Under the pieces are notes generated by a model. The model worked only from the letters and a program-made list of their open reading frames with translations, was not told where the DNA came from and made no database searches. From positions 2,689,501 to 2,753,500 of the forward strand of contig NC_018645.1 in NCBI RefSeq assembly GCF_000307105.1: a stretch of DNA of 64,000 nucleotides, read 5' to 3'. The position numbers and the translations under genes are program-made. Below, piece by piece: positions 1 to 28,191 of the stretch (position 1 is its first letter; every line of letters starts with the position of its first letter). Source of the stretch: Desulfobacula toluolica Tol2. Its GTDB lineage: Bacteria; Desulfobacterota; Desulfobacteria; Desulfobacterales; Desulfobacteraceae.

Positions 1-821
1 TTCAACCATGAAGCGTTAAGATCTTTAGCAAGTTTAACTGACAGATCGATAGCCTTCTGGGGCACCTTCCCCCATACCCCTATACCGCCATCGTCTATAT
101 TGACCTTCCACTGTTCTTCATAGGCCTGGTGACGCCAGTGGGCCTCTACAACCTTGTAATTGCCTGTGACTGTTTTTAAGTCCCTGTCGATATGGATAAA
201 TTTCTGTGCTATAAGGGGGGGAGAAAGAAACGGATAAAGCATTCTTTTTTGTTTAATCAGATAGTAATAAAAAATCCTCTTTTTCAGCAGTCTAAAAAAA
301 TAATTCAGTGAAAACCCGTTAACAAAATTAAATGTCGACAACTTATAAAAAGAAATTAATTCTTTTAAAGAGTTTACCCTATAAACAGAACCTCCACCGG
401 CACCATATCTATTTTTAATCACCATTGGATAACCGAGTTTTTTATCGGCTAATTTAACTGAATCCATTGAAAAAAGCGGATAAGTCTCGGGGATAGGGTA
501 TTGATTATGCTTTAAAAATAAATATTGTCTGTATTTGTCATTATAATAAGGAATAATCTTCGGGTCAGGGAACATACCAATATCCGGGTACATCGATTTG
601 ATATGTGTCAAATTATCATAAACATCCTGAAGTGCAAGTGGATAGCTGGAACTGTATTTAAAGGAAGGATAATAAATAACAAAGTCGATACTGCTGTAAT
701 CAAAATCAATCCATTCATTATCTGAAAAATCGAGTACAATACAATTTATCCCGTGATCCTCTAACGTACGCTTGAAGTCAGAAAACCGTTCCTGAGATTT
801 AAAAAGCACTGCTTTCTGCAT
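1..821 (-). CDS. ATP-grasp domain protein, partial (runs off the window)
   Basis: An open frame of 273 codons runs from an ATG at 821 off the left edge, so the C-terminus is missing. The first ~100 residues resemble a pre-ATP-grasp domain. They are followed by the ATP-grasp signature YPMVIKNRYGAGGGS (ATP-binding Lys and glycine-rich loop) and later LIAQKFIHIDRD, as in RimK/carbamoyl-phosphate-synthase-like ligases. Such enzymes join a carboxylate to an amine through an acyl phosphate. The start lies 3 nt after the stop of the upstream glycosyltransferase, so the gene is the distal member of the same EPS operon and probably modifies a sugar or a precursor. The substrate cannot be told. The fold assignment is good; the role is inferred from context. 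Confidence 0.8.
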   Translation of the reverse strand, partial: MQKAVLFKSQERFSDFKRTLEDHGINCIVLDFSDNEWIDFDYSSIDFVIYYPSFKYSSSYPLALQDVYDNLTHIKSMYPDIGMFPDPKIIPYYNDKYRQYLFLKHNQYPIPETYPLFSMDSVKLADKKLGYPMVIKNRYGAGGGSVYRVNSLKELISFYKLSTFNFVNGFSLNYFFRLLKKRIFYYYLIKQKRMLYPFLSPPLIAQKFIHIDRDLKTVTGNYKVVEAHWRHQAYEEQWKVNIDDGGIGVWGKVPQKAIDLSVKLAKDLNASWL

Positions 822-824
822 AAG

Positions 825-2051
825 CTATCCTTTCTTTTTTTGTTGATAATTATAGATTGCTTGTCTATACACAGCCTCCTGTTTCTCTTCGATTTTTTCC
901 CAGTCATACGTCCGGGCCAGGTCACGTGCATTCTTCTGCAGGAGCTCTCTTTGTTTCGGATTATTCAGCAAATGAACTACCCTGTCGGCAAAATCCTCCG
1001 GCGTATCTCCTATGAAAATATCCTTTCCATCCGTAACATTCAATCCCTCACATCCAACTCTGGTCGAAACTATGGCTTTTCCCATTGCCATCGAGTCCAG
1101 TATCTTCAACCGGGTTCCGCTGCCGATTCTGATGGGAACCATCAACACCATGGCCTCATCCAGATAAGGACGGATATCGTTTACAAAACCCGTTGTTTTA
1201 ATGTTTTTGTCCTTTTTTTCCGCTTCAGTTATTTCTGTCGGTGGAGATGTTCCAACGAATATAATGCGGACATCCGGGCATTTCATTTTCAGTACTGGAT
1301 ATATATCTCGCATAAAATACAACACCGCATCCAGATTTGTGTGGACATCCATGTGGCCGATCCAGAGAACCGATTTTTCAATTTTGTTTCGCCCTAATGG
1401 TTTAAAAAAATTTGTATCCGTGCCGTTTGGCACCACAACTATTTTGTTCTCCCCCCCCATTGCTTGTAAAATGTTACGGTCAATCTCGGAAACAGCAACG
1501 CAACAGTCAAATTTTCGCATTGCAATGCGCTCAAATGCTTTTAATTTAATATATTGTATTCCGAGATAAATTTTCTTTAATATATTTTTTTCATTTTGAC
1601 ACCACCTGAAAAGCCGAAGGGATTCGACATTATGGTTGACCAATATCTTGGGTATATCACTGAATTCTTGTTCATATGCAGTCAATGGCAGCATATCCAC
1701 ATGCACCAGGTCTATAGTTCCCTTTTTTAATATCTCCTGTATCTTACGCCGCATCAACGGGAAATCGTATTTTTGTGCAACAAAAGGCTTTAAAGAAAAA
1801 AGGTTTTTTATAAGGGCAGAAACAAGTTTGAACCTTGATGCATCTGCCGGGATTCTATACGGGTAAACTGCTTTACATATGGATTTGAGATGGTCTATAT
1901 TTTCCGACTTCAACTCTTCATCAAGTTGGATATGCGTAACAAGTGTTACATTGTGCCTTTTGGCCACCCCCCTCATAATATGATAGGTTCTCAAACTGTG
2001 CCCACTAATCAATGGGTATGGGCTTCTTGTTGAAAGAAATAAAACATTCAT
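825..2051 (-). CDS. GT4-family glycosyltransferase, exosortase-locus type
   Basis: 408 aa. The N-terminus MNVLFLSTRSPYPLISGHSL has the Rossmann-like start of GT-B glycosyltransferases found in PEP-CTERM/exosortase loci (sugar transferase, TIGR03087-like). The C-terminal half has the GT4 nucleotide-sugar region: VVVPNGTDTNFF, then SGTRLKILDSMAMGKAIVS, which occupies the E-x7-E region. It should add a sugar from a nucleotide donor to the growing lipid-linked repeat unit on the cytoplasmic face. An AAGG ribosome-binding site precedes the ATG. It is 15 nt from the upstream ligase gene and 3 nt from the downstream ATP-grasp gene, so they are probably co-transcribed. Donor and acceptor are unknown. 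Confidence 0.88.
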   Translation of the reverse strand: MNVLFLSTRSPYPLISGHSLRTYHIMRGVAKRHNVTLVTHIQLDEELKSENIDHLKSICKAVYPYRIPADASRFKLVSALIKNLFSLKPFVAQKYDFPLMRRKIQEILKKGTIDLVHVDMLPLTAYEQEFSDIPKILVNHNVESLRLFRWCQNEKNILKKIYLGIQYIKLKAFERIAMRKFDCCVAVSEIDRNILQAMGGENKIVVVPNGTDTNFFKPLGRNKIEKSVLWIGHMDVHTNLDAVLYFMRDIYPVLKMKCPDVRIIFVGTSPPTEITEAEKKDKNIKTTGFVNDIRPYLDEAMVLMVPIRIGSGTRLKILDSMAMGKAIVSTRVGCEGLNVTDGKDIFIGDTPEDFADRVVHLLNNPKQRELLQKNARDLARTYDWEKIEEKQEAVYRQAIYNYQQKKKG

Positions 2052-2066
2052 TATTGGCCTTCTTTT

Positions 2067-3431
2067 TTAACTCTGTCTTTTAACCATTAATTGCGAACTT
2101 AAATGTGCAACAATTCCCATAAAAACCCAATAAATCAGCATAAGATTGTAATACAACGATTGATCGCCGGTAATGCTTCCGACAAGATGGACACTCACAC
2201 ATAAAAAAAAGCCTAGTCCTATCCCTTTATAAAGACTGTTTTCAGCATACAGGTATAGTATAAATCCCTGCCGTAAAATGACGAATATAAATATGATAAA
2301 AACCAACATCCCCATTAATCCCTGCTCAGCTAATATTTTCATATACAAACTATGGGTGATCATCCCCTCAACATGCCGAAACGTATCAAACCCGATACCG
2401 ATGAACAAATGATCTTTAAAATATATCTTCGCCTTGTCCCACAACTCTTTTCTGCCTACCGTATCAACGCTGACGCCTCCAATCCCGATAGCATTTGATG
2501 TCACACTCTCTTCAATTACGGTAGCCTTTCCCAAAAATGTGCTGTCGATTCTTTCAACGACCGAATTAGGCAAAATATAGCTGTATCCTATAATCAAAAC
2601 AACCAGCAGTAAAAGTAATTTTCGATCTTTTATCATTCCGAGCAAAAAGAGACCTGCGATCATACAGATATATGCAGCTCTCGAGTAAGAAAATAGGATA
2701 GGATATAGATTGCATGCAGAGACGAATAATATAAGCCACTTGATTTTTTTATCCTGCATAAAATAAGAAATACCAATTAAAAGAAATGTGTACATGGAAT
2801 AGAAAACACCTAATTCATTTGGTCCCAGGAAACTAAAAGGCCCTGATATTCTGATATCATTACTGTAATGCTCTGCTTTTATCCATCTGAAGGTGCTGTA
2901 GAAATTAAAGTCCATGGCCAGCATGGCCAGGCAAATGCAAACAATTAACAACTTAATATTTTTTTCATCTCTCAGGTTGTTCATCGTTATAAAATACATG
3001 AGCGGTAGAATCATGTAATTCTTCCATGCCATCAGCCGTGTAAGGTTGATATCAGCCGGCAACGCCATGAAAGTGTAGCCCCTGATCAGGTTTACGACAC
3101 TGTAAATCACTATTAAAAAAACAGCCGCGTTAACCGGTGATCTTTCAATAATCCCCCGTCGCTCTCTTGCTACATTTACAAACCAGCCGAAAACCATTGC
3201 TATCAACATCCAATCCGCCATGTTATTGCCACCGGGAAATTCAGATATTTTTTGCATTACAGCAATAATAGGTACAAAAGTAACAAAAAAAAATATTCCA
3301 ATCTCAATTCGAGCGATACTAAACAGCATTACAGGAAATGAGAAAATGTAAGTAATGAGTGGAGCGAAAAAAGTCAGCATAATATTATATTTGAAAAATT
3401 TAATATTAAAAAAAGCTTCTGCATTGTTCAC
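2067..3431 (-). CDS. O-antigen ligase / polymerase-like membrane protein (Wzy_C)
   Basis: 454 aa with about 11-12 hydrophobic segments. The large periplasmic loop near residues 300-360 ends in HSLYMKILAEQGLMGMLVF, the conserved block of the Wzy_C / WaaL family. In exosortase loci such proteins are annotated as putative O-glycosylation ligases or polymerases; they transfer or polymerise lipid-linked glycans in the periplasm. The frame opens with a GTG directly after the TAG of the rhodanese gene, giving tight coupling; an ATG 17 codons further in (3380) is the alternative. Whether it is the EPS polymerase or a protein O-glycosylation ligase cannot be decided from the sequence. Confidence 0.85.
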   Translation of the reverse strand: MNNAEAFFNIKFFKYNIMLTFFAPLITYIFSFPVMLFSIARIEIGIFFFVTFVPIIAVMQKISEFPGGNNMADWMLIAMVFGWFVNVARERRGIIERSPVNAAVFLIVIYSVVNLIRGYTFMALPADINLTRLMAWKNYMILPLMYFITMNNLRDEKNIKLLIVCICLAMLAMDFNFYSTFRWIKAEHYSNDIRISGPFSFLGPNELGVFYSMYTFLLIGISYFMQDKKIKWLILFVSACNLYPILFSYSRAAYICMIAGLFLLGMIKDRKLLLLLVVLIIGYSYILPNSVVERIDSTFLGKATVIEESVTSNAIGIGGVSVDTVGRKELWDKAKIYFKDHLFIGIGFDTFRHVEGMITHSLYMKILAEQGLMGMLVFIIFIFVILRQGFILYLYAENSLYKGIGLGFFLCVSVHLVGSITGDQSLYYNLMLIYWVFMGIVAHLSSQLMVKRQS

Positions 3432-3902
3432 CTATTTATTTTTACCGGTTATAATTTTCCCCTCCCAAACAACTGGGAACCCGACCTTGGTCATCGCTTT
3501 CCAACCGCCGTCAACAAGGCATGTCCGCCTGTAACCTTTTTTTATTAATCTCAGCGCAACACTTGCGCTTGTTCCTTCATTTGCTCAGTCACAGTATACA
3601 ATAATCTTTTTGTTTTTCGATATCGGCAATTTTGCCATAGAAATACGATCAAGATCTTTTTTCCCATCCCCCGGCAAATTGATTGAGCCTAAAATATGGT
3701 ATTTTTTATATGTTCTTTTATTCATAGCATCGGCAATTATTACCTTACCACTTTTATACATGAGAAGAGCCATTTCCGCACTAATTCTAGGAACTTTTGA
3801 CAATAAGTATTGCATTCTTTTATCCTTATCGCTGTCCGCTTCCAAAAAATTTGGAAAGATTAAGCACATAAGGAATAAGGGTATAAAAAAAATTTTAACC
3901 AT
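3432..3902 (-). CDS. periplasmic rhodanese-like selenoprotein (in-frame TGA as Sec106)
   Basis: Read with TGA 3585-3587 as selenocysteine, this is a complete 156-aa protein ending at TAG 3432-3434. The ATG at 3902 overlaps the region of the deacetylase stop (TAA 3895-3897) and has the Shine-Dalgarno GAGGTG just upstream. Residues 1-22 form a signal peptide (MVKIFFIPLFLMCLIFPNFL). The rhodanese fold follows: RISAEMALLMYKSGKVIIAD, then the active-site strand IVYCD-U-ANEGTSASVA, then KKGYRRTCLVDGGWKAM, which is the usual end of the domain. Counting back from the conserved Gly-Tyr, the TGA falls exactly where GlpE-type enzymes have the catalytic Cys; relatives read YCxCPNEATSA. A SECIS-like hairpin follows. 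It likely acts in periplasmic sulfur or selenium transfer or redox. A conventional call would stop at 3585 and lose the last third, including the catalytic site. The alternative is a nonsense-mutated pseudogene, but the undamaged downstream frame argues against that. Confidence 0.82.
3553..3587 (-). promoter_or_regulatory. putative bacterial SECIS element downstream of Sec UGA
   Basis: On the minus strand the UGA at 3587-3585 is followed by 22 nt and then the loop of a perfect 7-bp hairpin: AGCGCAA (3569-3563), loop GUG (3562-3560), UUGCGCU (3559-3553). Bacterial SECIS elements lie inside the reading frame with the apical loop about 16-37 nt after UGA and a G among the first loop positions, so distance, loop size and loop base all fit. 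The element codes for part of the rhodanese helix, so the stem also has to satisfy protein constraints. SelB binding is inferred. Confidence 0.72.
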
Positions 3903-4929
3903 GAACACCTCTGTGTACTTTTTTAAAAACAATTTTAGCCAATTCCCCAGCAAACATAAACAATGGCCCAGTTATGTGAACTCTTGGCAGATCGTATGGA
4001 CTGGTATTTCCATTTACTATACCAAAATTAGTTGTAAGCACGCTTCTAAAATTTTCGTTTCTGCAAAACACCCTGAGTTCCTCTGTAAAATCTCCTGGCT
4101 GACCATTTGGTATGGCAAAGTGATTTACTTTGTTTTTTATAAATTTTTCTATCTCTTTTCTGGACAAGTAAATTTCAGCTTTTGCTTCTTTTGTTTTCAT
4201 TTTACTCAACGTCGGGTGAGTCATGGTATGGGCACCAAAAGTAATTCCATTTTCGCTCATTTCAACAATTTCAGACCAGTTTAACATCATTCTTTCGTGG
4301 CATTTTGTTCCATCGTTATTGCCCAAATACTGTATTAAACGGTTCAAATATTCCAGTTTCAAATTATGATCAAGATAGAGCAGTTTCAAATAAATCTTGT
4401 GAAGAATAGATAACCTGCTTGCTGTATCTGAAATGTTAATGATATTATTGCCGAATAATTCCGGAAAAAAGAGTCGCTTTTGATTTGTTTTTTCAAGGGC
4501 CATACCCAACTCATCCACCCATGGAGCTTTTGAGGTACCGATCAAACCAGAAGTTAAAAATATCGTGGCAGGGATATCAAGTTCTTTTAATATCGGATAA
4601 GCAAAATCATAATTATCCTTGAATCCGTCATCGATAGTGATGACGATTGTCGTTTTTTGAAACCGTTCCTTTTTTCTCACTTTTTCAACAAGATTATCCA
4701 AAGATATAACATCATACCATCTGTTTATATAGTGCATCTGTTTTCGAAAAAATTCGCTATCCAGCTTGTGAAGAATTGAATTGTTCTTCTTATCGGCAAA
4801 CCTATGATAAAATAAAACAACACATTTATTTTGTTTATTGAAAAAGAGCAGCCATAACTTAAGGAAACCGGAGTAATAGATTACAAAATAAAAAATTGTT
4901 TTAACCGCTTTTTTAAACTTTATTTTCAC
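3895..4929 (-). CDS. polysaccharide deacetylase family protein (NodB-like)
   Basis: 344 aa. The NodB homology domain shows motif 1 as TIDDGFKDNYDFAYPILKEL (catalytic Asp pair) and motif 2 as FGAHTMTHPTLSKM (zinc-binding His residues). The later strand NHFAIPNGQPGDF is in the usual position. An N-terminal hydrophobic stretch suggests membrane attachment. The family removes N- or O-acetyl groups from sugars. The frame begins with GTG inside the last codons of the flippase gene (17-nt overlap), pointing to translational coupling. The stop codon sits just upstream of the rhodanese ATG. This is one of four deacetylases in the locus; the substrate glycan is unknown. Confidence 0.88.
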   Translation of the reverse strand: MKIKFKKAVKTIFYFVIYYSGFLKLWLLFFNKQNKCVVLFYHRFADKKNNSILHKLDSEFFRKQMHYINRWYDVISLDNLVEKVRKKERFQKTTIVITIDDGFKDNYDFAYPILKELDIPATIFLTSGLIGTSKAPWVDELGMALEKTNQKRLFFPELFGNNIINISDTASRLSILHKIYLKLLYLDHNLKLEYLNRLIQYLGNNDGTKCHERMMLNWSEIVEMSENGITFGAHTMTHPTLSKMKTKEAKAEIYLSRKEIEKFIKNKVNHFAIPNGQPGDFTEELRVFCRNENFRSVLTTNFGIVNGNTSPYDLPRVHITGPLFMFAGELAKIVFKKVHRGVHG

Positions 4930-6391
4930 TCTTAAAAATGCCCATCTTTCTGATAGAAATAATTTTTAATCTGAGTTCTGCATCCAAGCAGACAACCAAA
5001 AAAAAATATATTGTCGCGCCCAAAAATATTTTACTGACAAAATCTACCAAAACAGTGCCAGTACTAATATTGTTAATTGCCAAAAACATCATACCTGCTG
5101 AAAAAGTGTACATCACCAACCGCTTATACTCCAACGGAAAACTAAATTCCCTCATGGACAGGAAGGTTAATACCAGCGTATAACAAATGTAAGATATCAA
5201 GGTTGCCTGGGCTGCACCAACAATTCCGTTCTTTGGAATTAAAAACAAGTTAAGAAATACATTCAGCGCGCACGTCCCCCCCATGACATAAGTCAGTAAA
5301 TGTGTCTTTTTCTTAATAAAAAGCCCTGAGTTTAAAATAATCGTACAAGCGTATATTGCCTGGCCCGTTACTACATAAGGCAGTACGGGATAGGCCTCAA
5401 TATATTTTGATGAGGCCAGCAGTCTTATTAAATCTTTGCCAACGGCAATAAACCCGAAGACCACAGGCACTATTATAAGCGAAAAATATGTAAACAATTT
5501 CGTAAAAAATACTCGCGTCTCTTCCTCTCCCTTATTCACCAAAATTTTCATATAAATGGGAGTCATTGCATAATTAATAGGATATATGATCGCATCGGTT
5601 AGATGCGTTGCCAAATTATATCCGGCCGTATACAATCCAAGCATGTTAGATCCGATATATATCTGTATTAAATACCTGTCGATGTAGTTCAGGATCAGGT
5701 GTCCCAATTCAGCCCAAACAATCGGAAATCCAAAACTTATGGCATTTCTCAACACACCATATGAAAAGAATGATTGCTTGATTCTTATATGTCTGCGCAA
5801 ATAGATTAAGAGAATCAATAAAATTAATAGCCAGACAGCCGCCTGGCCCAGATAAAACCCGTACAGGCCGTTGTACATATAGAGTGTGAGGAAAATGCCG
5901 AGTCCAATGGCACCATATCTTCGAACCGTTACAATAATATTATATGATTTTGTTCTCTGCTCCGCTCTCAAAAAACTTTTCAGCGTATCTGTCGCAGCGC
6001 CAACTAATACCAATAAAGGAAACAACCAGATTAATCCGGACAAGCTATTGTCGACAAACTTCGCGAAAAAATAATCCCAGGAAATGCCGAAACCCAATGA
6101 TACCGTTGCGGCAAATATCAATACCCCAAAAAAATTGGTTGTATAAAAAAGGGCTTTTTGATCGACAGCTTTATACTCTTGGTAAAAACGGACAATTGAA
6201 TTCGGAATGCCAAGTTTGGCGATGGCAATGGCAAAAAAAAGAGTTGTATTGATCAGCCCGAAAACACCATACTCTGTAACTGAAAAAATCCTTGTTAAAA
6301 TGGGGAAAGAAATAAGCCCTGCAGCCATCATAAATATGTGCCCACCCAAGTAATGAGATGCTTGTCTTATTAACGATCTGATTTCTATCAA
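4913..6391 (-). CDS. Wzx-type polysaccharide flippase (MOP superfamily)
   Basis: 492 aa, almost entirely made of 12-14 hydrophobic helices. The N-terminal pattern (SHYLGGHIFMMAAGLISFPI, then TRIFSVTEYGVFGL) is characteristic of the polysaccharide biosynthesis / MVF-like family. It should flip the undecaprenyl-linked EPS repeat unit to the periplasm. The start is a TTG with an AGGA Shine-Dalgarno 7 nt upstream; no ATG lies nearby. It overlaps the deacetylase by 17 nt and follows the aminotransferase-like gene after 2 nt. It is the only flippase seen in the locus, consistent with a Wzx/Wzy-type pathway. Confidence 0.9.
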   Translation of the reverse strand: MIEIRSLIRQASHYLGGHIFMMAAGLISFPILTRIFSVTEYGVFGLINTTLFFAIAIAKLGIPNSIVRFYQEYKAVDQKALFYTTNFFGVLIFAATVSLGFGISWDYFFAKFVDNSLSGLIWLFPLLVLVGAATDTLKSFLRAEQRTKSYNIIVTVRRYGAIGLGIFLTLYMYNGLYGFYLGQAAVWLLILLILLIYLRRHIRIKQSFFSYGVLRNAISFGFPIVWAELGHLILNYIDRYLIQIYIGSNMLGLYTAGYNLATHLTDAIIYPINYAMTPIYMKILVNKGEEETRVFFTKLFTYFSLIIVPVVFGFIAVGKDLIRLLASSKYIEAYPVLPYVVTGQAIYACTIILNSGLFIKKKTHLLTYVMGGTCALNVFLNLFLIPKNGIVGAAQATLISYICYTLVLTFLSMREFSFPLEYKRLVMYTFSAGMMFLAINNISTGTVLVDFVSKIFLGATIYFFLVVCLDAELRLKIISIRKMGIFKSENKV

Positions 6392-15765: not shown

Positions 15766-17028
15766 TCAAGTAAAATCCATTATGGCTTTTCGTTTTCTGA
15801 TGACGCGGATATCATGATCACAAACCATCAATTCCAAGGGGGTTTTGTGTCCCAAGAAAAGAAGAGGACTGGAACTTAAGCCATAGCTCCCCGAATTTAA
15901 AAAACCAATCAGATGGCCCACCACAGGCGTTTCCACTGAAACTTTTTTCCCCATCAAATCCAGGGGCGTACACAAAGGCCCCACTAAATTACAGGTCATT
16001 ATAGGAGCCATGGGGGCTGAAAAATTTTTTACAATGTAATTTTTTCTCAACAATGCCCCCAGGTTTCCGGAGGCTGCCAGGTGGTGATTCATGCCACCGT
16101 CCAGCACAAAAAAATATTCCCCTCGTGACATTTTTTCGCTGACCACACGCGTAACATAAATGCCTGCAGAGCTGACAAGATACCGCCCCAATTCAATTAC
16201 AAAACGAGGCGTATCTTTCACTGATTCTTTATAGGCCTCAATGGGTGCCTTTATTGAAGAGGCAATTTTATTCAGATCAATGCCCACATTCTCATTGTAA
16301 TAGGAGACCCCGAAACCACCGCCGAAATTTATCCAACGGCACTCAACCCCATATTCTTTTTTTAACTGCCAGGCAATTTCAAGGGTGTTTATAATATTTT
16401 TCGACAAAGCCTCTTCGTTCATGCACTGAGAGCCGGCGTAAACATGAATGCCCTGAAAATTAAAAATATCAGGGGCACTTTTTATATATTCAATTGCGCC
16501 GCCTATATGTTCTTCATCAATGCCGAACTGTGTGGCCTTGCCCCCCATTTTCACTGCAAACTCATTGATGAGAAGTTTCGGGTTAATGCGAACAGCAATG
16601 TTTGCCCGAGCCCCCAGTCGTGGAACATTTTTTTTTATATCTTCAAGCTCTCTTATGGACTCAACACTGATGATACCTACTTCGCTTTTAATAGCTGCCT
16701 CAATGTCCTGTTTCGTCTTCCCGGGTCCTGCATAGCTCAACCGGGCTGCCTCATATCCGGATATCAGTGCCTGGTTCATTTCTCCCTCCGAGGAAATATC
16801 GAGGCCGTCAACTTCCTCTCTTATTTCTTTCAATATCTCCAGGTTGGGGTTGGCCTTCATGGCATAGAACAGGGAGAGGTTGTTTCCAAATGCCTTTTTG
16901 AAGCCGGATATTTTCTGCTTGATGGTCTCCAGATCGTAAAGGTAAAAGGGTGTTTCGAACTCATCTGCCAGATCTTCAAAACAAACATCTCTCAGATACA
17001 GTTTCCCATTTCGTTCTTTAAGCTTCAT
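15766..17028 (-). CDS. PLP-dependent decarboxylase, exosortase A system-associated
   Basis: 420 aa from the ATG at 17028 (GTGAG Shine-Dalgarno); the 78 upstream codons overlap the acyl-CoA ligase and are not native. It is an alanine-racemase-fold group IV decarboxylase: the PLP Lys lies in LSLFYAMKANPNLEILKEI, the phosphate loop in WINFGGGFGVSYY, and the second-subunit Cys in CNLVGPLCTPLDL. Relatives include diaminopimelate and ornithine decarboxylases and the exosortase-associated family TIGR03099. With the acyl-CoA ligase and ACP just upstream it makes a conserved module, probably preparing an aminoacyl-derived modification for EPS. The substrate amino acid is unknown. Confidence 0.92.
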   Translation of the reverse strand: MKLKERNGKLYLRDVCFEDLADEFETPFYLYDLETIKQKISGFKKAFGNNLSLFYAMKANPNLEILKEIREEVDGLDISSEGEMNQALISGYEAARLSYAGPGKTKQDIEAAIKSEVGIISVESIRELEDIKKNVPRLGARANIAVRINPKLLINEFAVKMGGKATQFGIDEEHIGGAIEYIKSAPDIFNFQGIHVYAGSQCMNEEALSKNIINTLEIAWQLKKEYGVECRWINFGGGFGVSYYNENVGIDLNKIASSIKAPIEAYKESVKDTPRFVIELGRYLVSSAGIYVTRVVSEKMSRGEYFFVLDGGMNHHLAASGNLGALLRKNYIVKNFSAPMAPIMTCNLVGPLCTPLDLMGKKVSVETPVVGHLIGFLNSGSYGLSSSPLLFLGHKTPLELMVCDHDIRVIRKRKAIMDFT

Positions 17029-17035
17029 TTTTTTC

Positions 17036-18625
17036 TCACGCCTGTTTGTTTGGTTTACTCTGCGGCCCCTTTTCGATCCATTTTTGTTTAATAAAGGCAC
17101 GATCAACTTTATCATTTGCTGTTTTTTTAAATTCATTTTCAAAATATATTTCATGCGGAACCATATAAGCAGGAAGGGTCTTCCTGCATGCCTGAAGAAC
17201 TGCCGGTTTTTCAAGCTGCCGGTTGCCTGTCTCAAGGACAGCAACAATATTCTGATCACCACTTTGCATAGACCTGCTGAAAACTACAGCACTTGCCACA
17301 TCCGGTATGGCAACCAGGCCTTCCTCTATTTCGGTGGGACTGATCCTGTAACCGGAGGTTTTAATCATCTCATCCCTTCTTGAAACAAAATACAGAAACC
17401 CTTGCTCGTCTTTTTTTACGATATCCCCGGAATATACCACCCTATCATCCAGGTGATCCTGACCTCCCGATAATGGGTTTTTTCTGAAAACCGCCCTTGT
17501 TTTTTCAGGATCGTTCCAGTATCCCCTAGTTACCAACGCCCCCCTGTGTACCAGTTCCCCTGGCTCCCCTGGCGCGCATTCCAGGCCATCCTTGTTGATA
17601 ACCATTATTTCAACGTTGGGGATGGCCTTTCCCATGGAATCAGGGTGCCTGTCCAACTCTTCCGGCGGAAGATATGTGCTTCTGAAGGCTTCGGTAAGTC
17701 CATACATCAGGTAGATCGCTGTATCCGGGAAAAAATCACGCATCTTATCAACAATGCTTCTGGGTACCTTTCCGCCCGTATTGGTAATATACCTCAGATC
17801 TGGAAAGTGCTGCCTGGATTTTGCACCATATTTTTCATTCAACAACTTGGACCATATTGGAATCATACCTGCAAAACCGGTTATTTTCTCTTCCCGCAAT
17901 ACTTTTAAAAGGTCGTTTGGAAGGAAAAAATGGTGCATCACAAGTGTGGCACCACACAAGATCGAACTGGTCGCCTGGTTGAGGCCATAATCAAAATTAA
18001 ACGGCAGTACACTGATCAGCCTGTCCGTTTGTAATATTCTAAGATAATCACTTACAATTGTGGCACCATCCACTACGGTTCGGTGAGGAACAACAACACC
18101 CTTTGGCAGCCCGGTGGAACCTGATGTATAAATAAGACAGGCGGTATCATCTGAAACCTGTTCAATCCGGCTGTTATCTGCAGCCAGGGACGTTTTGACC
18201 TGCTGCCACACGGGATGGGAAGTTTCAATTTTTGTCCTGTCCATGAAAAGAAACTGTTTTGGTTTGTCAATTGAGTTTGCCTGAAAGATTTTTCCCGTGG
18301 TAATCAACAGCTTAATATCGCAATCGCTGATTATATGATCAATTTGATTTTTTTTGAGTATCGGATTTAAAAATACAAAGATACCACCGGCCATTGATAT
18401 GCCGAACATACTTATCAATTGCTCTATCGATTTTTCCAATAATATACCGACGCGATCACCCTTTTTAATGCCCAAAGCGATCAGCAGACCTTTCATTTTC
18501 AATGAATCTTCATATAATTCAGCGTATGTGATGCTTCTTTCCTTCTGTTTTGCGGCCTCTTTTTCCAGATATTTGGCAGCACTGTCCTCCAACAAATGGC
18601 CTACAAGATAGGGACGCAAACTCAT
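17036..18625 (-). CDS. acyl-CoA ligase (AMP-forming), exosortase A system-associated
   Basis: 529 aa. The adenylate-forming superfamily motifs are intact: phosphate loop CLIYTSGSTGLPKGVVVPH, hinge region YSGDIVKKDEQGFLYFVSRR and DEMIKTSGYRISPTEIE. It resembles TIGR03098 enzymes of PEP-CTERM/exosortase loci. It likely activates a carboxylate or amino acid as an acyl-AMP and loads it on the small acyl carrier protein encoded immediately upstream, whose stop overlaps this start (ATGA). The PLP decarboxylase follows after 7 nt, so all three should be made together. Confidence 0.92.
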   Translation of the reverse strand: MSLRPYLVGHLLEDSAAKYLEKEAAKQKERSITYAELYEDSLKMKGLLIALGIKKGDRVGILLEKSIEQLISMFGISMAGGIFVFLNPILKKNQIDHIISDCDIKLLITTGKIFQANSIDKPKQFLFMDRTKIETSHPVWQQVKTSLAADNSRIEQVSDDTACLIYTSGSTGLPKGVVVPHRTVVDGATIVSDYLRILQTDRLISVLPFNFDYGLNQATSSILCGATLVMHHFFLPNDLLKVLREEKITGFAGMIPIWSKLLNEKYGAKSRQHFPDLRYITNTGGKVPRSIVDKMRDFFPDTAIYLMYGLTEAFRSTYLPPEELDRHPDSMGKAIPNVEIMVINKDGLECAPGEPGELVHRGALVTRGYWNDPEKTRAVFRKNPLSGGQDHLDDRVVYSGDIVKKDEQGFLYFVSRRDEMIKTSGYRISPTEIEEGLVAIPDVASAVVFSRSMQSGDQNIVAVLETGNRQLEKPAVLQACRKTLPAYMVPHEIYFENEFKKTANDKVDRAFIKQKWIEKGPQSKPNKQA

Positions 18626-26649: not shown

Positions 26650-28191
26650 TTATAACGGGAGGTATTTTGTTGTTTCATTTATAAAAATATTCAGGAATTT
26701 CTCAAGCTTGATTTCCCGATCTTTCTTATTATGGGATGAACTTTTAAAAACAAGAACAAATACTGATCCATCCGACCTGTTCTGTAACAGACTATCCAAA
26801 ACCATAAATATCTTGGCTTGATATTGATTGTAAACATAGCGTCTGATATTCCGAGACCAAGACAAAAATGTCTCATTTTGAATCCCAGTATTTAAATTAG
26901 CGCAGGTTGTCTTTAATTTAAATGGTGATGGCTTTACATTTATATTCCAAGTTTTCAAATATTGATGAGCATGACTAAATTTTGGAGGAATGTTCTTGTT
27001 TGCATGAAAAACCAACTCCTGCCCCTGCTTTTGGATAGGCATAAATGAAATAAAAACCTTAATCTCATTTCCATCAGCATCTCTGTAAAGACGGCATAAG
27101 TTGTCAGTCGTTCCAGAAATTTGCGGACGCCATTCATGTTGCGAAAGTTCAGAACCTTTCCATTGACCCAGAATCGAAGGGAAAGACTTGAAGCTTTTTA
27201 TCATAGGCATGTCGGCCTGGGATTTAATTCGAAAATGAACCCAAAGTGGAACTAATAATATCATAACCACAATCAAGACACCACGATAAGATAAAAACCC
27301 CTGAAAAAATCGACGGAACTGATTCTCGCAGTTTGTTATTGGCTCTCCCCCGGCAACAGAACTTTTCCCAAAACGCAGGAGAAGACTCATGAATCCAAAA
27401 AGCATAATTAAAGCACCAATAAATATTATATATCCGTGAATCTTGTGTGGTATGCCGGAGACAAAAATAAGCTTTCCTTTGTACGGAATAATAAGCAAAC
27501 TCACGATACGAATCAGATTTCCCAAAATCGGCAGAATAGCGGAAACGATTACAATCGAAACTTTCTTCCATAACGAATTAAAATAAAGGTGGGCGATGGC
27601 AAACCCTATCGGCATGATAGCAGTGATATTCCGAACACCGGCACAGCCTGGGGCAACCCATACGGAGGTATCCGGAATTATGATCGAATATCCTTCTGAA
27701 AAAACAGGGATACCCAGAACACGTAAAATATTTACTGAAGCCTCCGTAAAAAAATATTGAAGATAAGGATAGACAAAATCCGGAAACGGCATCATGAATA
27801 TCAATATCAAGAGAGGAATAAAAAGCAGCTTTAATATATCAAAGCCAAAATAAAACAGAATGATACCTGGGATAATTATAAAAAAAGATATTTGCTGTGC
27901 TATCTTACTATAGGACGCCTGACCCATTATATACGCTGTCAGAGCAATGATGATTAATAACAGGCCTACTCTTGAAGGCTTGACAGTAACGTCTTGGAAC
28001 AAATATTTTTTCTTCCAAATGACATAAAATGATAAAAAAGGTATGGCGAATCCGAAATGGTAATCGAAATCGTTGACCCAGGTATGAATCCAAAAGGCAA
28101 ACGACTGCCAATAGAGCAGTATAAGCGAGACAGAAAGAATGACAAGATTAATTGTAACAGCAAGGTTTGCATAATAATATTTTGTTTGCAT
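26650..28191 (-). CDS. xrtA: exosortase A fused to EpsI domain
   Basis: 513 aa. Residues 1-~310 are the exosortase: eight or so membrane helices with the catalytic set Cys183 in VAPGCAGVRN, Arg228 in NLIRIVSLLI and His249 in GIPHKIHGYIIF. Residues ~315-513 are the EpsI (DUF3485) domain, starting around SFKSFPSILGQWKG and ending with an amphipathic tail. Exosortase cleaves PEP-CTERM sorting signals at the membrane; EpsI accompanies it in EPS loci. No PEP-CTERM substrate gene occurs in this window. The fusion and the surrounding EPS genes place it in the XrtA (EpsH) type. Confidence 0.92.
   Translation of the reverse strand: MQTKYYYANLAVTINLVILSVSLILLYWQSFAFWIHTWVNDFDYHFGFAIPFLSFYVIWKKKYLFQDVTVKPSRVGLLLIIIALTAYIMGQASYSKIAQQISFFIIIPGIILFYFGFDILKLLFIPLLILIFMMPFPDFVYPYLQYFFTEASVNILRVLGIPVFSEGYSIIIPDTSVWVAPGCAGVRNITAIMPIGFAIAHLYFNSLWKKVSIVIVSAILPILGNLIRIVSLLIIPYKGKLIFVSGIPHKIHGYIIFIGALIMLFGFMSLLLRFGKSSVAGGEPITNCENQFRRFFQGFLSYRGVLIVVMILLVPLWVHFRIKSQADMPMIKSFKSFPSILGQWKGSELSQHEWRPQISGTTDNLCRLYRDADGNEIKVFISFMPIQKQGQELVFHANKNIPPKFSHAHQYLKTWNINVKPSPFKLKTTCANLNTGIQNETFLSWSRNIRRYVYNQYQAKIFMVLDSLLQNRSDGSVFVLVFKSSSHNKKDREIKLEKFLNIFINETTKYLPL

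Follow-up and report, generated by a model that had tools for sequence, protein, structure and literature searches.

A divergent CxU rhodanese with a predicted selenocysteine in an exosortase/EPS locus of Desulfobacula toluolica Tol2

A rhodanese gene of Desulfobacula toluolica Tol2 carries an in-frame TGA that, judged from its conservation, a covarying SECIS hairpin and the sel genes of the genome, encodes selenocysteine (Sec) with near certainty. The gene lies in an exosortase/EPS locus within the 64,000-nt stretch analysed here (contig NC_018645.1, positions 2,689,501 to 2,753,500), which is referred to as the window. Three Aminotran_4 proteins are encoded in the genome, matching the number reported for D. 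toluolica Tol2; one of them agrees at all 286 residues with PDB 9j0u, a predicted D-alanine aminotransferase, which fits the 286-residue DtolTA of the strain (PMC11673721). Although truncated by standard gene calling, the small, probably exported, sulfur-handling rhodanese is almost certainly a full-length selenoprotein of known type, and very likely a Sec-encoding CxU rhodanese belonging to an EPS-linked subgroup. This subgroup of seven loci appears to be new, and its association with exosortase/EPS genes, which make and export cell-surface sugar polymers, was found nowhere described.

Results

Gene, reading frame and protein

A first-pass annotation, made from the sequence alone, had reported a rhodanese with an in-frame TGA and an undamaged frame behind it. 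Both observations hold; the gene is located on the minus strand, which that annotation had left unstated (Table 1). The peptide around the TGA reads ...IIVYCD-U-ANEGTSASVALRLIKKGYRRTCLVDGGWKAMTKVGFPVVWEGKIITGKNK. In the read-through protein (P0001), Pfam Rhodanese (PF00581) covers residues 60-154 at 53 bits against a cut-off of 22; the domain therefore extends across the TGA and is completed by the frame downstream of it, as had been proposed. This match above the curated cut-off and the rhodanese fold of the structure model (see below) both assign the protein to the rhodanese superfamily. Mechanical ORF calling yields a 122-codon ORF ending at the TGA and hides the C-terminal half, again in agreement with the earlier reading. 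The hydrophobic leader, recognised by eye, fits the signal peptide suggested before, and the rhodanese is probably exported. Less straightforward is the claim that its TAG lies one base before the next gene: this is correct for the mechanical ORF, which opens with GTG 3431, but according to the comparison of orthologues the O-ligase probably starts at an internal ATG (MLTFFAP...).

Table 1. Features of the Sec-rhodanese gene and its surroundings (window coordinates)
Feature	Position	Strand	Evidence and remarks
Sec-rhodanese gene	3432..3902	-	ATG 3902, TAG 3434-3432; 156 aa including one Sec (U106); read-through product matches Pfam Rhodanese and NF041203
In-frame TGA (UGA), motif YC-D-U, read as selenocysteine	3585..3587	-	TGA at the same codon in syntenic orthologue L095 and in every subgroup member found
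Hydrophobic N-terminal leader (probable Sec-pathway signal peptide)	3837..3902	-	Sequence MVKIFFIPLFLMCLIFPNFLEA, read by eye
Bacterial SECIS hairpin AGCGCA-AGUGU-UGCGCU	3553..3569	-	16-32 nt after the UGA, inside the coding sequence; fold and covariation
RimK-like ATP-grasp gene, truncated at the edge of the window	3..821	-	L116 orthologue matches PF08443; syntenic in L050 and L116
PEP-CTERM/XrtA-system glycosyltransferase (TIGR03087-like)	825..2051	-	227 bits vs cut-off 317; adjacent in L116; adjoins the rhodanese in L050
O-antigen ligase-like (Wzy_C) gene, directly downstream of the rhodanese	2067..3431	-	Same neighbour in L116
Polysaccharide deacetylase gene, directly upstream, 8 nt overlap with the rhodanese start	3895..4929	-	PF01522; same neighbour in L116
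Polysaccharide flippase	4913..6391	-	Part of the gene order kept in L095/L116
DegT/DnrJ-type aminotransferase, last gene of the block common with L116	6394..7587	-	
Exosortase A system decarboxylase (TIGR03099) and acyl-CoA ligase (TIGR03098) genes	15766..18625	-	
Exosortase with EpsI domain, marker of the locus	26650..28191	-	TIGR02602 160 bits, TIGR02914 76 bits

Evidence for selenocysteine at the TGA

The sel gene set of the genome is complete, comprising tRNA-Sec (selC; 76.5 bits, over the cut-off), selB (358.7 bits), selA (605.6 bits) and selD (360 bits). A lack of selB or selC had been named as grounds for giving up the Sec reading; with all four genes present, this objection falls away. 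The selD match (L059, G000:C1:2134729-2135649) contains an in-frame TGA of its own, so SelD is itself probably a selenoprotein.

A direct comparison is offered by the syntenic orthologue L095 from MAG G389 of the same phylum, which shares 67% identity over 120 aa and likewise has TGA at this codon. The MAG is a draft with 5% contamination, and the kinship of the L095 contig WFRX01000002.1 is less sure than its sequence. With synonymous sites near saturation, dS has no numeric value, and we relied on pS, protein identity and the spread of differences over codon positions. Upstream and downstream of the TGA, pS was 0.92 and 0.89, pN 0.20 and 0.23, and protein identity 47/69 (68%) and 32/48 (67%), respectively; the nucleotide differences after the TGA fell on codon positions 1, 2 and 3 in numbers of 12, 10 and 34. 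By these measures, conserved coding sequence continues beyond the UGA and is under selection on both sides of it. Homologues had been suggested as a check for random substitutions downstream, which is not the pattern seen (pN 0.23 vs pS 0.89), and the subgroup relatives carry TGA at this position. The recurrence of TGA at this position, in the syntenic orthologue (67% identity) and in these other relatives alike, goes beyond chance.

A stem-loop with a loop G and a covarying stem follows the UGA. The five pairs of its core are formed in all 18 homologues that could be aligned gap-free, and the loop G is invariant. Three of these core pairs change on both sides (GC to CG, UA to CG, CG to AU; 12 cells in total). 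None of 500 shuffles attained the covariation score, and slid controls lay at 0.00-0.15 vs 0.37. Inspection by eye revealed a like hairpin in L050 and L096, displaced by their longer loop, and in L049, L051 and L052, there with one mismatch; the minimum-energy folds predicted for some of L049-L052/L096 differ.

Active site: C104 and U106

An AF2 model (pLDDT 84, seven-row alignment) displays the rhodanese fold, with a strand at residues 99-103 followed by C104 and a helix starting at residue 110. In a strand-anchored alignment with 6mxv, C104 lines up with the strand-end Cys, and U106 is part of an insertion of two residues; counting 17 residues back from the Gly-Tyr instead pairs U106 with the GlpE Cys. 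These pairings are mutually exclusive because the loop is two residues longer. The earlier assignment of the TGA to precisely the catalytic Cys position follows from the Gly-Tyr count, but is doubtful since both the 6mxv alignment and the AF2 model place C104 there. In place of the single catalytic Cys that opens the short loop of GlpE-type enzymes, the window protein has a C-D-U pair in a loop exceeding that of 6mxv by two residues. The natural reading of the active site is a C-x-U pair, in which the usual Cys is retained as C104 and U106 is an added partner. Since C104 is kept, and since relatives may carry Sec at the two positions together, Sec looks added rather than swapped for the usual Cys.

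UxU motifs, in which TGA occupies both positions and one rhodanese loop holds a pair of Sec codons spaced by two residues, were found in L051 and L052, and also in L028, L033 and L043. In L124 (G211:C43:230554-230883 and downstream), the reading frame of a UxU rhodanese runs on into a C-terminal portion that contains eight CxxCH heme-binding motifs, and this fusion suggests a rhodanese-cytochrome redox protein. The UxU variants and this fusion point to redox chemistry using both motif positions. CxU is a redox motif in SELENOF (PMC9304195).

Family placement and known relatives

The best curated match of the window protein was NF041203 (rhodanese_LYCAU), a family of rhodanese-related (seleno)proteins, at about 58-65 bits (57.8 in the genome search) and therewith below the cut-off of 115. 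NF041203 was also matched by all five seeds of our subgroup profile, and the motif of the family, CxU (or UxU/CxC) with a SECIS at the same place, is present in the window gene. Canonical CxU members are abundant in the class, some of them UxU, and one CxC variant (L118) was seen. CxU rhodanese selenoproteins have been described before, as 'form 3, CxU' (PMC13188914) and as 'form 2' CxU (PMC9312934). With NF041203 as best match and such proteins already in the literature, the window protein is, by its sequence, a divergent relative of known CxU rhodanese selenoproteins and not a new kind. The suggestion of a new type of sulfur or selenium transfer protein was therefore dropped.

The window protein and NF041203 have in common the rhodanese domain, the CxU after the strand, the position of the SECIS and, in most members, a leader. 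They differ in the active-site loop, which reads CDUANEG in the window and CAUPNE and the like in canonical members, in a C-terminal extension found in most subgroup members, and in the exosortase/EPS setting, constant in the subgroup and absent from the 16 canonical loci sampled. NF045521 (rhoda_near_glyco) is likened by the rhodanese domain and by a family name that suggests glycan genes nearby, whereas the window protein reaches only 27-28 bits against its cut-off of 145. The thiosulfate sulfurtransferases GlpE and PspE, the latter periplasmic, share the fold and the single-domain size, but have one catalytic Cys, a shorter active-site loop and no Sec, and their models give only 17-22 bits. 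A rhodanese domain with Sec is also present in the TsoB rhodanese/DsbD fusion selenoprotein (NF045694) and in the UxxS rhodanese selenoproteins, which differ in domain build or Sec position.

A second in-frame-TGA rhodanese of the same genome (L054:9462-10241 (+), G000:C1:3293578-3293943) has the motif YCASSNUWKS and is probably a UxxS selenoprotein form. Two more weak NF041203-like matches outside the window (G000:C1:4647448-4647672 and G000:C1:298513-298770) have a TGA inside the match or frame.

An EPS-linked subgroup

The subgroup profile was built from the window protein and four relatives. Searched against 389 genomes of the class, it returned its seed loci with 171-212 bits and everything else with at most 63 bits; the one exception was a locus that occurred again in another MAG. 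The subgroup was present in 5 of the 389 sampled class genomes; with so few carriers, the rhodanese is not required by exosortase systems in general. Among 395 genomes of the phylum, two members from outside the profile, each with TGA, were recovered (G389 and G592, 142 and 119 bits). All seeds but the window had been chosen by score or TGA count before their surroundings were read, which leaves the two members from the phylum search as the ones strictly independent of the profile.

Each of the seven distinct loci (window, L049, L050, L051, L052, L095/L116 and L096) encodes C/U-x-U, contains TGA and lies among EPS genes. The window, L050 and L052/L114 include an exosortase gene, and L049 and L096 an exosortase A system decarboxylase and ligase. 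Using the same queries, an EPS setting was found for 7/7 subgroup loci vs 0/16 canonical loci, with one weak tyrosine-kinase hit among the latter, some of which were short (shortest 5.9 kb). A Sec-rhodanese inside an exosortase EPS locus had been called unexpected; the locus is confirmed, and the placement recurs in every subgroup locus. In the tree, the subgroup stands apart from 13 canonical rows (support 100/97); its own unity is weak (73/69), and L074 may fall inside it.

The gene order ATP-grasp, glycosyltransferase, O-ligase, Sec-rhodanese, deacetylase, flippase and DegT aminotransferase is kept between the window and L095/L116. A ThiF-like gene (PF00899; L052:10664-11545) is located two genes from the rhodanese in L052, and another, recognised from its sequence by inspection only (L115:2545-4566), lies about 16 kb downstream of the window rhodanese; they constitute a possible sulfur-carrier link.

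A scan of genome contigs with a two-row alignment returned the L095 contig (MAG S015_6, WFRX01000002.1) and a weak Pedobacter match, the same scan with the single window protein gave no match, and no match was found in viral contigs. Among the papers searched, none was found to connect exosortase with a rhodanese selenoprotein; the few co-mentions of exosortase with rhodanese or selenocysteine were judged incidental from titles and term counts, and such an absence is not proof. Contigs L020 (G276:C73) and L021 (G355:C158), from two MAGs of different assigned families, yield identical translations of the rhodanese frame, suggesting shared or mis-binned sequence.

Discussion

Mechanical ORF calling halts at the TGA, an ordinary stop codon outside selenoprotein genes, and the gene could on this ground be taken for a pseudogene, or for one from which only the 122-codon product without the active-site loop is made. 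We give this next to no credence, since the frame stays open under purifying selection equal to that before the TGA, the identical codon recurs in the syntenic orthologue and all subgroup members, the SECIS covaries and the full sel machinery is encoded. The conserved TGA of the orthologue, the selection on both sides and the covarying SECIS also led us to reject a sequencing error. That the protein is an ordinary NF041203 member, placed among EPS genes by chance, is highly improbable as well: NF041203 is the curated family of all five seeds and the window's best match, and CxU motif and SECIS sit at the same position, but the score stays far below the cut-off (58-65 vs 115 bits), most subgroup members have a C-terminal extension, and EPS genes surround every subgroup locus and, bar one weak kinase hit, none of the canonical ones.

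With regard to function, a classical sulfurtransferase of the GlpE/PspE type is conceivable but rather unlikely. Here, Sec would take the place of the catalytic Cys, with thiosulfate or polysulfide as the sulfur donor and an acceptor belonging to EPS or exosortase biology. The rhodanese fold, the weak matches to the GlpE and PspE models and the count from the Gly-Tyr that arrives at U106 are in line with it; against it stand the retained strand-end Cys, C104, which the 6mxv alignment pairs with its counterpart, and the relatives in which both positions can be Sec.

We favour a redox role for a C104-U106 pair. SelB and Sec-tRNA very likely read the UGA as Sec, directed by the SECIS hairpin just downstream in the coding sequence, and the resulting Cys-Asp-Sec pair is carried in the lengthened active-site loop of a probably exported single-domain rhodanese. 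On the envelope side of the membrane, C104 and U106 may form a selenenylsulfide/sulfane-sulfur redox pair. In a sulfide-rich envelope, the rhodanese could then clear sulfane sulfur or pass it on, or act as a reductant of oxidised thiols; part of the exosortase/EPS machinery, e.g., the active-site Cys of the exosortase, might in this way be held in a working state. We put forward this envelope mechanism serving the EPS/exosortase system as a tentative proposal. The idea that a distinct envelope CxU/UxU rhodanese subfamily controls the thiol/sulfane-sulfur state of exosortase systems in sulfate reducers and their relatives is doubtful; if true, it would be the first selenium link to the exosortase protein-sorting pathway.

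Wherever TGA is taken for a stop, gene calling discards the active site of this rhodanese, and the curated CxU model misses the protein by 50 bits. By recurring in exosortase/EPS loci, the selenium rhodanese links the redox chemistry of selenium and sulfur to the export of surface polysaccharide and PEP-CTERM proteins, and the D. toluolica Tol2 rhodanese is a concrete, testable candidate in a cultured sulfate reducer.
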